Under the pieces are notes generated by a model. That model ran no database searches. It was not told the origin of the DNA and worked only from the letters and a program-made list of their open reading frames with translations. From IMG/VR virus record IMGVR_UViG_3300050821_005250, positions 1 to 39,599 of that record: a DNA stretch of 39,599 bases; one strand, given 5' to 3'. Origin of the DNA: a virus. Below, piece after piece: positions 2,154 to 39,540 of the stretch. Numbering within the stretch: position 1 is the first letter of the stretch; each line of letters begins with the position of its first letter. The translations under genes and the position numbers were made by a program.

Positions 2154-2909
2154 ATGAGCAGCGCTGGCCCACCTCCGATCTCTTACATACCGATCGCGCC
2201 TGGACTGATCGAGTGGAAGCACATTCTACGGATGGGCGGAGGGTCCGTACGGATGGGAGGGTCCGCATTGTGGCTCTTCACGTTCCTCGTTCATCACCAG
2301 CGGCGACCAGACGGCCTGGTGCACGGCGGCCGGCCGATCACCTACCAGTGGATCGCCGAGAGGCTCAAGGCGCCGCCAACAGCGGAGCGAACACTCCGGC
2401 GATGGATGCAAGTCCTAAAATCCGGCGCCTACATCCGCACCCGAAAAGTGCGGGACGGGGGCGGAATGATCGTCTCGGTCGTCGCGCAAAAAAAATGGCC
2501 GGGCTACTCATCGCAGGGGCGTCTATTTCCGCGGCCGGAGCCGGCGAAAATGCCAGGTACCAGGACCGCCAGCAAAGCCTGTGGAAAACCTGTGGAAAAG
2601 CCTGTGGAAAACGTCGAAAGCGGCCTGGTACTGGACCGGCCCGGTGAGGCCGGACCAGTACCAGGTTTAAGGCCGTTGAGTAGCTTTAAGAAAGAAATAG
2701 ACAAACCTAATAAGAACGCGCAACCCGCGGCGAGAGACGCCGTCGGTCCTGAGGATAACGCGGTTTTTCTCGCGCGTCTCGCGGCGATCGCCAAGGCCAA
2801 AGCGATCGACAAGCGGCCGGCCATGACCGACCAGGAGCTCGACGCACGGCGCCGGCTCCTGCTCGACCAGGTGGAGCAGATCCGGAAGAGGCAAAGCAAA
2901 GCCTCCTGA
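2154..2909 (+). CDS. Phage replication initiator, lambda O-like arrangement
   Basis: 251 residues. The N-terminal 120 residues look like a winged helix-turn-helix (SALWLFTFLVHH, then ITYQWIAERLKAPPTAERT and LRRWMQVLKSGAYI), as in phage O-type replication proteins. The middle is low-complexity and basic, coded by DNA holding iterons and a large inverted repeat. The C-terminal 60 residues are charged and helical. Lambda O has the same plan: an iteron-binding N-domain, the origin inside the gene, and a C-domain that contacts the helicase loader. No helicase or loader is recognised nearby, so host DnaB may be recruited directly. Assignment is by pattern and context. Confidence 0.62.
   Translation: MSSAGPPPISYIPIAPGLIEWKHILRMGGGSVRMGGSALWLFTFLVHHQRRPDGLVHGGRPITYQWIAERLKAPPTAERTLRRWMQVLKSGAYIRTRKVRDGGGMIVSVVAQKKWPGYSSQGRLFPRPEPAKMPGTRTASKACGKPVEKPVENVESGLVLDRPGEAGPVPGLRPLSSFKKEIDKPNKNAQPAARDAVGPEDNAVFLARLAAIAKAKAIDKRPAMTDQELDARRRLLLDQVEQIRKRQSKAS
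2580..2715 (+). other. Candidate replication origin inside the initiator gene
   Basis: Three direct TGTGGAAAA elements begin at 2580, 2591 and 2603, about one helical turn apart; the complement TTTTCCACA resembles a DnaA box. An inverted repeat follows with 18-bp arms (2624-2641 and 2648-2665, 17 of 18 pairing, 6-base loop). CCAGGTACCAGG at 2553-2564 repeats part of the arm. An AT-rich purine tract at 2681-2715 then stands out from the GC-rich gene. Iterons next to an unwinding element inside an initiator gene is the lambda ori arrangement. Confidence 0.55.
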
Positions 2910-3257: not shown

Positions 3258-3524
3258 ATGCCGAAAAGCAAAACTGTAAATAAAAGTTTACCGCCGGATC
3301 GGCGCACGCAGCGCTACTTTCCCGGCGATCCCGCCGTTAACTTGCTGAACGCGGCGACCGATTGGGTGCGATCGCGCGGCGGAGATGTGCTGGTCATTGG
3401 CGGAGTCGAGGTCCAGCGCTGGCCGGAAGATCTGGAATTTACGTTTCGTGTCGCGGTCCGCTGTACGGGGCGGTCGCCGGTCGCAGTTCCGTCTGACGAC
3501 GCGGCTGCGGTCACTAACGAGTAG
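3258..3524 (+). CDS. Hypothetical early protein
   Basis: 88 residues, no recognised family. A strong GGAGG lies 5 bases before the ATG. The middle, VLVIGGVEVQRWPEDLEFTF, suggests a compact beta-rich fold. The last residues AAAVTNE and the stop are coded by the first copy of a 20-bp tandem repeat that continues beyond the gene (3504-3583), so the repeat seems to have expanded from the gene's own 3' end. Confidence 0.62.
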   Translation: MPKSKTVNKSLPPDRRTQRYFPGDPAVNLLNAATDWVRSRGGDVLVIGGVEVQRWPEDLEFTFRVAVRCTGRSPVAVPSDDAAAVTNE

Positions 3525-3583
3525 CTGCGGTCACTAACGAGTAGCTGCGGTCACTAACGAGTAGCTGCGGTCACTAACGAGTA
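3504..3583 (+). repeat. Four perfect 20-bp tandem repeats
   Basis: GCTGCGGTCACTAACGAGTA occurs four times without a mismatch, at 3504, 3524, 3544 and 3564. Copy 1 is coding (end of the 3258-3524 gene), and copies 2-4 fill the gap before the ATG at 3591. There are no spacers, so it is not a CRISPR array. It may be a binding-site cluster or a recent slippage expansion. Confidence 0.95.
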
Positions 3584-3590
3584 GGCGACG

Positions 3591-3872: not shown

Positions 3873-4105
3873 GGATCTACGACGAGGCCGTCCTCGAGCG
3901 CATGGGCTTTGTAAAAGTAGCTAGGCCGGACGGCTTCTGCGGAAAGTGTCAGCGGCGGATCGAATGGTGGGAGGACCGCCTGCAGCACAAGGTCCCGTTT
4001 ATACGCACCAAGGGCGGAAAACTCGCTCCGCACTACTCGGCATGTCGAGGAGTCGTGAAGGCCAGCAAGACGGTTAGAGCGAAGGTGAAAAAATGGGAAG
4101 ACTGA
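3869..4105 (+). CDS. Small zinc-finger-like phage protein, relative of the 2955 gene
   Basis: 78 residues from TTG at 3869, overlapping the previous stop, with AAGGA in front; ATG at 3902 is an alternative. CGKCQRRIEWWEDRLQHKVP and HYSACRG mirror CRGCNERIEWF and HFAICPA of the 2955-3242 protein, so the pair look like diverged paralogues with one metal site. Its 3' end overlaps the next gene by 13 bp. Function unknown. Confidence 0.65.
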   Translation: MRIYDEAVLERMGFVKVARPDGFCGKCQRRIEWWEDRLQHKVPFIRTKGGKLAPHYSACRGVVKASKTVRAKVKKWED

Positions 4106-7522: not shown

Positions 7523-7726
7523 ATGACAGACGAGACAACGAAAGCGAGCGCGCCGGCAACAACCGCGGCGCAACCTGCAGCGGCAACGACCGCCGCGGAC
7601 TTCGTGCGGAAAGTCTTCCGCATCGGTTTCGATTGGTACGAGCAACTCGGCTCCCTGCAAGCTCTGCGGGAAGCTGCAGCCAGCCTTCCAGCAAAGCCAG
7701 GCGCCAAGCGCCGCAGGCCGTCCTAA
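7523..7726 (+). CDS. Truncated ribbon-helix-helix paralogue lacking the DNA-binding strand
   Basis: 67 residues from ATG at 7523. ADFVRKVFRIGFDWYEQLGS is nearly identical to the second helix of the RHH protein at 1299-1541 (ADFVRKVFRIGFERYEELGS), but the N-terminal DNA-contacting strand is replaced by an Ala/Thr-rich stretch. The basic tail is kept. Its stop overlaps the ATG of the integrase fragment (TAATG), the same gene order as in the left module. It may be a decaying duplicate, or a dimer-forming antagonist without DNA binding. Confidence 0.6.
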   Translation: MTDETTKASAPATTAAQPAAATTAADFVRKVFRIGFDWYEQLGSLQALREAAASLPAKPGAKRRRPS

Positions 7727-8043
7727 TGAAACAAGGTGCCGTGAGAGGTATTTTCGAACGGCCGCCGGCGTCGGGGATTTGGTGGATCTCGTATTTCGAC
7801 GCCGTCGGTAAATGGCATCGCGAGAAGGTCGGCCGCCGGGCGGTCGCCCTGGACGCCTACTACCAGCGCAAGCGCGAGATCCGCGAGGGAAAGTTTGTCC
7901 CGCCGGCCGCCAGGCGGTCGCGCATGACTTTCCGCGACCTGTGCACGCGCGCCCTGGCCCATAAGAAAACCCGCGTATCCGCCAGTCACGCCATGAATGA
8001 CGAGCTCCGCGCAAAGAAGATCCTCGCCTCGATCGGCGACCTC
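7726..8043 (+). pseudogene. Integrase N-terminal fragment (third integrase copy)
   Basis: Residues 1-106 align with the left integrase almost throughout (both open MKQ-AVRGIFERP; both have AYYQRKREIREGKFVPP and end SIGDL). Arm-binding and part of the core-binding domains are kept, and the whole catalytic domain is missing. After 8043 the reading frame stays open to 8229 but is unrelated, because it runs out of frame through a zinc-ribbon gene. This is a duplicated RHH-int module cut at one sharp junction. A remnant is most likely; a competing DNA-binding fragment is an alternative. Confidence 0.85.
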
Positions 8044-8059
8044 GGCGCCGGCGGCATCG

Positions 8060-8275
8060 AGCGCAGTCGCGATTCGCGTTTTTCTCCGGCCGGATCTGGT
8101 TTGCGGATGCGGAGCCGCGTTTTCCTCGCGCGAGGTTCTGAAAAACGCGAACGGATCGCTTACCGGCGAGGTTCGCTGCAAATGCATGAATTCAGCATGC
8201 CCGATCAAAGGCCGCGAGATCATCGTTGACATGCGTCCGCTGCAAGCTCGCTACGTTAACGCGGCAGGCAAATAG
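8060..8275 (+). pseudogene. Zinc-ribbon small protein, 5' end replaced by integrase fragment
   Basis: In a frame shifted from the integrase fragment, VFLRPDLVCGCGAAFSSREV followed by CKCMNSACPIKGRE reads as a small Cys-rich zinc ribbon (CxC ... CxCx4C) ending at 8275. No normal start codon lies near its beginning; the frame opens at ATG 7997 only through out-of-frame integrase sequence. The junction at about 8044-8065 probably removed the true start. It may be silent or made as a fusion from 7997. Confidence 0.5.
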
Positions 8276-37146: not shown

Positions 37147-38199
37147 TTAGGCGCTCCTCGAGATCTTCTCGGCGGCCTCCGCGGTATGGTCGGGCGAGAG
37201 ATGCGCGTATTTCATCGTCATCACGATGCTCTTGTGTCCCAGCAATTGCTGGACGGCGCGGATGTCGGCGCCGGCCATCACCAGGCGCGAGGCGAAAGTG
37301 TGCCGGAGGTCGTGCCAGTGAAAATCCTTTACGCCGGCGGACTCGGCGCTCTTCTCTAGCCAACGTCGCCAATCTCTCTGCACCTCGTTGGTGGTCTCCG
37401 GACACACATACTCGTTGACCGGATTGCCGTGCGCGTCCTTCTCGCAGCGATCGTGGATCCGCTCGATCGCGGCCTTCGCCGTTGAATTGAGTACGACGTG
37501 CCGGCGGCCAGTCTTACCGCGCACGGTCGCCACGCCGCGCTCGAGCGAGACGTCCTTCCACTTGAGCGTAAATTGTTCGCCGCGGCGCATCCCCGTATAG
37601 AGCGCGAGGTCGAATTCGTCTTCGTTTTGCGGGTAGTGCTCGCGGATGTACTTCCGGAGCCGGACCTCTTCGTCGGCGAGCAGGTAGCGCAGGCGGGACT
37701 CGTTTTCCTTGAATTTTTTCACGCGCGCGACAGGGTTTGTCTTAAGCCGGCCAGTGCGGAGCGCAAAGGAATAGATCGAAGAGATGAGCGATCGATAACG
37801 ATTCGCCGTCGATCCGCAGATCCCCCCGTCGATGAGCTTGGCGAAAGCGCGTTCGAGCTGCTCCGGCGTGAGCTGCTCGGCCGGGACCGAGCCGATGAAC
37901 GGCAGGATCCTTCCGAGGCGGAGGCGATCGCTTTTGTAGGATTGCGGAGCCAGGCGCAACCGCTTGTACTCGAGCGCAGCATGCGCGAGATCGCGAAACG
38001 GAAGAGCGGCTCGCGCCGGCGAGATGTACATCCCGTCCGCAATCTCTTTGTGCCGGCGCGTGAGAGCCTGCAGAGCTTCCGATTTGCGGCCGATCTTTTC
38101 CTTGTGGCGCTTTCCTTCGGCGTCGTAGTAATCGATCCAGAAAAAGCCGGACTTGCGCGGCCGCTCGAAGATGCCTCCGCGCGTCTTTGTCTCGATCAT
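37147..38199 (-). CDS. int: Tyrosine recombinase / phage integrase (right copy)
   Basis: 350 residues, related to the left integrase throughout, at roughly half identical positions. Arm-binding start GGIFERPRKSGFFWIDYYD, then a core-binding domain. Catalytic set: R205 (TGMRRGE), K229 (RGKTGRR), H296 and R299 (HDLRHTF), H322 (LLGHKS), Y331 (KYAHLS). All residues needed for activity are present. GGGGAG lies before ATG 38199. Unlike the left copy it has no RHH partner and heads an operon of small genes instead. Which integrase uses the tRNA-Leu core is not decided by sequence. Confidence 0.95.
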   Translation of the reverse strand: MIETKTRGGIFERPRKSGFFWIDYYDAEGKRHKEKIGRKSEALQALTRRHKEIADGMYISPARAALPFRDLAHAALEYKRLRLAPQSYKSDRLRLGRILPFIGSVPAEQLTPEQLERAFAKLIDGGICGSTANRYRSLISSIYSFALRTGRLKTNPVARVKKFKENESRLRYLLADEEVRLRKYIREHYPQNEDEFDLALYTGMRRGEQFTLKWKDVSLERGVATVRGKTGRRHVVLNSTAKAAIERIHDRCEKDAHGNPVNEYVCPETTNEVQRDWRRWLEKSAESAGVKDFHWHDLRHTFASRLVMAGADIRAVQQLLGHKSIVMTMKYAHLSPDHTAEAAEKISRSA

Positions 38200-39511: not shown

Positions 39512-39540
39512 GGCGCGTCTGCCAATTCCGCCACTTCCGC
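39502..39540 (-). pseudogene. 5' half of host tRNA-Leu(UAG), interrupted by the prophage
   Basis: On the minus strand from 39540: acceptor GCGGAAG, the D-arm ending GGCAGACGC, anticodon-stem strand CCAGC and loop CTTAGGA, then prophage sequence. It completes the 3' half at 44-98 exactly. With no variable arm, T-arm or acceptor partner behind it, it cannot give a tRNA. Confidence 0.93.

Follow-up and report, generated by a model that had tools for sequence, protein, structure and literature searches.

A candidate replication origin was found inside the initiator gene of an apparent prophage. It covers positions 2580-2715 of the window, by which we mean the whole stretch of 39,599 bp that was analysed, a virus record. 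We give a probability of roughly 0.83 to the reading in which the phage initiator binds GC-rich dyads, the host DnaA binds the boxes in front of them, and the AT-rich tract behind them opens (Table 1). The DNA itself shows which parts are present, in what order and at what fixed spacing they lie, and that they recur in diverged relatives. This comparative sequence evidence supports the origin reading well, and from it we infer which protein would occupy which site.

Table 1. Position of the candidate origin parts and of the protein regions encoded around them; offsets are counted from the core of the first dyad.
Feature	Position	Strand	Remarks
Replication initiator gene, 251 aa	2154-2909	+	ORF; match to PHROG_7498; family matches of relatives
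Winged-helix DNA-binding domain, residues 20-113	2211-2492	+	AlphaFold2; Foldseek; conserved in alignment A2
Disordered linker, encoded by the candidate origin	2493-2747	+	pLDDT <50, residues 113-198; relatives poorly alignable
Degenerate copy of the left palindrome arm (tentative)	2555-2570	+	69 bp upstream of the arm; by eye
Probable DnaA box 1 (TTTTCCACA)	2580-2588	-	offset -58
Probable DnaA box 2 (TTTTCCACA)	2591-2599	-	offset -47; one-mismatch boxes there in L136 and L339
Probable DnaA box 3 (TTTTCCACA)	2603-2611	-	offset -35, exactly as in L136, L339, L342 and L343
42-bp palindrome, core dyad GGCC-N6-GGCC at 2638-2651; probable initiator site (iteron 1)	2624-2665		
Degenerate second iteron, right half-site alone (tentative)	2661-2674		exactly 23 bp after the first, just ahead of the AT tract
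AT-rich purine tract, probable DNA unwinding element	2676-2715	+	lowest-GC 40-mer; recurs in relatives
C-terminal helical region, residues 199-250	2748-2903	+	AlphaFold2 helices 199-219 and 226-250

The window looks like a prophage with both attachment sites, as indicated by a repeated tRNA end and an integrase gene. A tRNA-Leu gene lies at 185-271, and its 3′ end is repeated at the right end of the window as a 20-bp direct repeat (245-264 and 39514-39533, traced through overlapping 16-mers). The two copies are probably attL and attR, which would place both prophage ends within the window. Beside the tRNA-Leu gene lies a full integrase gene (278-1318). Another full integrase gene is present near the opposite window end (37147-38199), and a mid-window fragment of an integrase N-terminus (7726-8229) shares about 76% DNA identity with the gene at 278-1318. 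Further along, the window carries, in this order, what we take from reading the sequences to be terminase, portal and capsid genes. ORF 2154-2909 is the sole recognisable replication gene. Among the early proteins scanned in PHROGs (2.9-9.5 kb), no helicase or helicase loader was recognised, nor a P-like loader gene next to the initiator, as is typical of a lambda-type origin. Cumulative GC skew is uninformative, because nearly all genes of the window are on one strand.

The product of ORF 2154-2909 has a single PHROG match, to PHROG_7498 (“DnaD-like helicase loader”, E=3e-7), and no match in Pfam, plasmid Rep families included. Its diverged relatives match replication-initiation or O-like families. 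The O-like matches are weak in L161 and L340 and strong only in L341, and the window protein itself has no significant match to the O-like family. AlphaFold2 models only two parts with confidence, the C-terminal helices and a winged helix located within residues 20-113. Foldseek searches returned generic winged-helix proteins from the PDB (best E 0.01), and, from viral models, several replication initiators or replisome organizers with weak E-values. The preliminary description had placed the origin in a poorly conserved middle part of the initiator; residues 113-198 have pLDDT values below 50, and this linker can be aligned only poorly between relatives. All parts of the candidate origin fall in the DNA encoding this linker. 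Since the linker is predicted to be disordered, the candidate origin sits where the protein can vary freely.

Searches with the initiator sequence itself yielded little. Scans for 8-mers of the window or L136 initiator retrieved identical copies only, tblastn gave nothing in phages and one weak match, covering 37% of the protein, in a plasmid collection, and a PDB sequence search found no relative. A profile of alignment A2 found nothing in 294 genomes from the phylum of L105, and a degenerate ERTLRRWM DNA pattern pointed to one further contig, L212. The window protein carries an 8-residue insertion (within RMGGGSVRMGG, 2235-2275), which is missing from the relatives and is apparently a short DNA duplication.

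Relatives were fetched by terminase scans of phage contigs, without using the repeats in the selection. A terminase search with a single protein retrieved the near-identical phage only, and L008, being 99.99% identical, was rejected as independent evidence. The initiator N domain was found in L130, L133, L136, L137, L143 and L161, with 27-34% identity to the window over the full alignment. In all six, the DNA for the initiator linker contains GC-rich 4-N6-4 dyads, between two and four of them, at distances of 22-24 bp. Examples are GGCCAAAAATGGCC, present twice in L133, GGCCAAAAGTGGCC, present twice in L143, and GCCCGAAAACGGGC with three variants in L161. In L136, L137, L143, L133 and L161 the dyad pair outscores every other pair in the locus, and none of 400 synonymous shuffles attains its score; the pair of L130 is weaker, its score being reached by 11 of 400 shuffles. 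Furthermore, an AT-rich tract follows directly 3′ of the iterons in 7/7 genes (the window and the six relatives), as in lambda-type origins. In each of them, the gene's lowest-GC 40-mer starts at most 4 nt from the dyad end, and in the window, L130, L136 and L137 this 40-mer has the lowest, or joint lowest, GC content of the whole locus.

Two further observations concern the neighbourhood of the initiators in these loci. L133 carries adjacent copies of the initiator N domain (3-251 and 229-1149), of which the upstream one ends early. Downstream of the initiator, L130 (4512-6317) and L133 (5161-6993) encode proteins of about 600 aa with a P-loop-like GQGKS/GAGKS motif, and no such protein was seen in the window.

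In the window, the place of the first dyad is taken by the core of the palindrome, GGCC-CGGTGA-GGCC (2638-2651). The inverted repeat with 18-bp arms and one mismatch, reported in the preliminary description, pairs at 17 of 18 positions (2624-2641 with 2648-2665) around a 6-nt loop. No second repeat of this kind exists in the window, and none of 400 synonymous shuffles reached the level of this one. The GTACTGGACCGGCC of the palindrome recurs identically at the start of the L133 iterons. Most relatives have an A-rich N6, which the palindrome core (CGGTGA) lacks. The second site (2661-2674) is not above chance, and the score of the dyad pair in the window is not above that of synonymous shuffles. 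The dyads of the window amount to one full and one half copy, whereas the relatives have tandem dyad iterons about 20-24 bp apart. The AT-rich purine tract that had been noticed after the repeats was recovered as the lowest-GC 40-mer of the window (27.5% GC), tied with one at 4086.

The viral contigs were also scanned, on DNA alone, for two GGCCANANNTGGCC sites. This gave 14 matches, 11 of them in winged-helix genes of the phage-initiator type, including L136 and contigs of L133 and L143 that were already known from the terminase search. Among the new loci, L339, L340, L342, L343, L344 and L346 match the N-domain profile, and L341 and L347 match replication-initiation PHROGs, L341 being an O-like initiator (PHROG_391, E=4e-25). 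Because the dyads were the selection criterion, these loci can speak for the gene type and the boxes but not for the dyads themselves. In L339 and L347, the dyads are directly followed by the AT minimum of the ORF; in L341, 23 nt separate the two. In L340, L342, L343, L344 and L346 the lowest-GC stretch of the ORF lies elsewhere; in L340 and L343 the first 45 bp past the dyads have a lower GC content than the DNA around them. Most of the relatives examined have a GC-poor tract on the 3′ side of the dyads.

Upstream of its dyads, the window holds exact copies of TGTGGAAAA at 2580, 2591 and 2603, spaced by 11 and 12 bp as described earlier, and no others in 39,599 bp. These sites are also the only matches to the DnaA consensus TTWTNCACA on either strand of the window. 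As in DnaA-box arrays, all three boxes (TTTTCCACA) fit this consensus, and they are close together, in the same orientation and helically phased. TTTTCCACA belongs to the mioC/R5 type of DnaA boxes, which binds Escherichia coli DnaA (PMC5835720). The preference of the prophage host may differ. A 9-mer triple as dense as this array was found in 0 of 100 dinucleotide shuffles. Given the protein and the codon usage of the prophage (TGT 17%, CCT 11%, GTG 14%), the probability of three exact copies is about 5e-7; if one mismatch is tolerated and the codons are drawn from the gene itself, the TGTGGAAAA count is only modestly unusual (15 of 500 synonymous shuffles). The iterons had been said to encode a repeated KPVEKPVE-like peptide, which is the case for boxes 2 and 3 (PVE[K/N]) and not for box 1, which is read in another frame (CGK). 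Therefore, the repeat exists at the DNA level and is not simply a peptide repeat, and a pure peptide-repeat reading of the array was ruled out. The suggestion that DNA function shapes the linker peptide is supported.

Boxes of this type are concentrated in front of the dyads. Across 15 genes, the 130-bp stretches upstream of the dyads (1.95 kb) contain 8 perfect TGTGGAWAA sites, compared to 4 in 240 kb elsewhere. When the window is excluded, the other 14 genes have 5 sites against 0.036 expected (P about 5e-10, an enrichment of about 140-fold). Four of these five, in L136, L339, L342 and L343, start exactly at -35 from the first dyad. The fit of TTTTCCACA to TTWTNCACA and this enrichment strengthen the earlier proposal that the host DnaA may take part. 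Upstream of their dyads, L133, L137, L161, L340, L346, L341 and L347 showed neither a perfect box nor one with a single mismatch, and with 7 of 15 genes lacking it the box array is an optional part.

These box-less relatives seem to have a complete origin of dyads and AT tract, as would be expected if the boxes were regulatory DnaA sites, controlling the initiator gene or titrating DnaA, and the dyads and the AT tract alone made up the origin. DnaA boxes are indeed known to titrate DnaA (PMC5835720). Nevertheless, we consider a purely regulatory role unlikely, given that the exact -35 spacing and the same-strand orientation relative to the dyads suggest a direct cooperation at the origin, and that a position deep within the gene would be unusual for a repressor site.

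Similar arrays were detected far beyond these initiators. In viral-contig arrays of at least three boxes, 139 of 192 spacings are 11, 12, 21 or 22 bp, which puts the boxes on one helix face. The triple TGTGGAAAA array was present in 3 of 200 Pseudomonadota genomes. Two of these three have an intergenic cluster of 11-12 boxes about 11 bp apart, with TGTGGATAA and TGTGGAAAA mixed, and from their sequence these clusters (L333:1263-1576 and L334:1446-1676) look like chromosomal origins. None of 299 Bacillota genomes contained the exact triple array, and some arrays occur in contigs with genes that we take, on our own reading, to be eukaryotic-virus-like. For these two reasons the motif alone is no proof of DnaA. 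In the related contigs L227, L249 and L262, TGTGGAAAA arrays are located just upstream of what is presumably, judged by eye, a small-terminase-like gene.

The preliminary description had regarded TGTGGAAAA as the iterons of the initiator, in which case the boxes would be additional sites, or the true iterons, of the phage protein, and DnaA would not be involved. Their location inside the initiator gene, at a constant distance to the dyads, speaks for such a role, but we rate it as quite unlikely. The same gene occurs without TGTGGAAAA in L133, L137, L161, L340 and L346, which is the observation that the preliminary description had named as refuting its iterons, and several relatives with the same initiator domain lack the boxes but keep the dyads. 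Moreover, unrelated viruses and the box clusters on bacterial chromosomes share the motif and its 11-12-bp spacing, and position 7 alternates between A and T (TTATCCACA in L343), matching the DnaA consensus TTWTNCACA. The dyads are therefore the better candidates for the initiator sites, because they are present in every relative examined while several relatives lack TGTGGAAAA, and the TGTGGAAAA copies are better candidates for host DnaA boxes.

A location of the origin elsewhere in the prophage, with the in-gene elements being accessory, is improbable. An exact tandem array at 3504-3584, 0.6 kb downstream of the initiator gene, could be such a place, but its unit is absent from all fetched loci except the near-identical L008 and its sub-loci, whereas the in-gene layout recurs across diverged initiators. 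This perfect tandem repeat (20 bp x 4.1, GCTGCGGTCACTAACGAGTA) lies at the end of ORF 3258-3524, and its copy number is unchanged in L008. It is highly improbable that the palindrome is an RNA hairpin (a terminator or attenuator) in the initiator mRNA and that the repeats are coding repeats, with no origin at all: the RNA folds strongly (z -4.3), but the terminator reading was ruled out by the lack of a U-run after the palindrome, the relatives keep short tandem dyads in the same register with an AT tract rather than one long hairpin, and box 1 is in a different reading frame.

In the proposed in-gene origin, the winged-helix domain of the initiator would bind the dyads at 2638-2674, by analogy with lambda O (PMC7466680, PMC5043065). 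The host DnaA would bind the three same-strand boxes at 2580-2611, whose distance from the first dyad is fixed at 35 bp. Joint binding of the two proteins would put the DNA under strain and thereby open the AT-rich tract at 2676-2715, a step again modelled on lambda O, and the host helicase DnaB could then be loaded at the opened tract through DnaA and/or the C-terminal helices of the initiator. The domain layout of the protein, a winged helix, a disordered linker and helices, speaks in favour of this model.

The length of the C-terminal part after the dyads differs between initiators with and without boxes. It measures 45-84 aa in those with a box array (with one exception of 189 aa) and 98-307 aa in the box-less ones, some of the longer parts belonging to initiators of the loader or O-like type. 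The comparison included seven versus seven related genes, L343 being left out as its frame ends at once, and was made post hoc (Mann-Whitney p=0.004, or p=0.04 without the weak L143 boxes). This trend suggests that DnaA may substitute for a loader-recruiting domain, which seven versus seven genes cannot establish. A tripartite in-gene origin, where the host DnaA takes over the helicase loading and the phage has traded its own loader-recruiting domain for the array, is thus a tentative and rather doubtful extension of the model.

In-gene origins are best known from lambdoid phages. In ori-lambda, which lies in gene O, the initiator binds dyad repeats in the middle of the gene and an adjacent AT-rich tract opens, and in lambdoid phages extra repeats alter the linker of the initiator protein (PMC7466680, PMC5043065). 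The candidate origin resembles them in its mid-gene position, its dyad-symmetric repeats and its adjacent AT-rich tract. With the recurrence of dyads and AT tract in the linkers of diverged relatives, a lambda-like origin within the initiator gene, as first proposed, appears likely. In contrast to ori-lambda with its four iterons, the window has one full and one half dyad, and DnaA-type boxes precede the dyads at a fixed distance. Furthermore, no P-like loader gene was found among the early proteins, and the window protein has no significant match to the O-like family. We do not claim membership in the lambda O family, given the ambiguous homology to O and the failure to find a P-like loader.

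In oriV of the plasmid RK2, DnaA boxes, iterons and a DNA unwinding element follow one another, and the position and orientation of the boxes are important (PMC4980987, PMC5043065). The window appears to have the same order. Unlike here, the initiators of the iteron plasmids RK2, P1 and pSC101 bind mostly direct repeats, as monomers, and not dyads; moreover, the candidate origin lies within the gene and its protein matches no Pfam Rep family. The genomic island SGI1, likewise an integrated element, has an oriV in which iterons occur together with AT-rich regions and a putative DnaA box (PMC7433901). The window seems to combine the same kinds of parts, yet the SGI1 oriV is located downstream of rep and has 17-bp direct repeats. 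Our verdict from the sequence comparison is a probable lambda-like placement with an RK2-like order of DnaA boxes, iterons and unwinding element. In the open literature searched, mostly titles and abstracts, we came across no phage origin in which DnaA boxes lie within a gene next to dyad iterons; on in-gene origins of lactococcal phages the search gave nothing usable.

The same in-gene logic would now extend to phages of uncultured hosts. Its signature, two 4-N6-4 dyads about 23 bp apart followed by an AT-rich tract, locates candidate origins from DNA alone. The DnaA-box array at a fixed distance is an addition to the in-gene origin, by which a direct use of the host DnaA becomes testable. 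The model also opens the question of how a coding sequence evolves when it doubles as an origin. Another in-gene box array is possible in L238 and L242, where a probable phage initiator gene contains TTTTCCACA at intervals of 15 bp, encoding the peptide PQVDFPQVDF.
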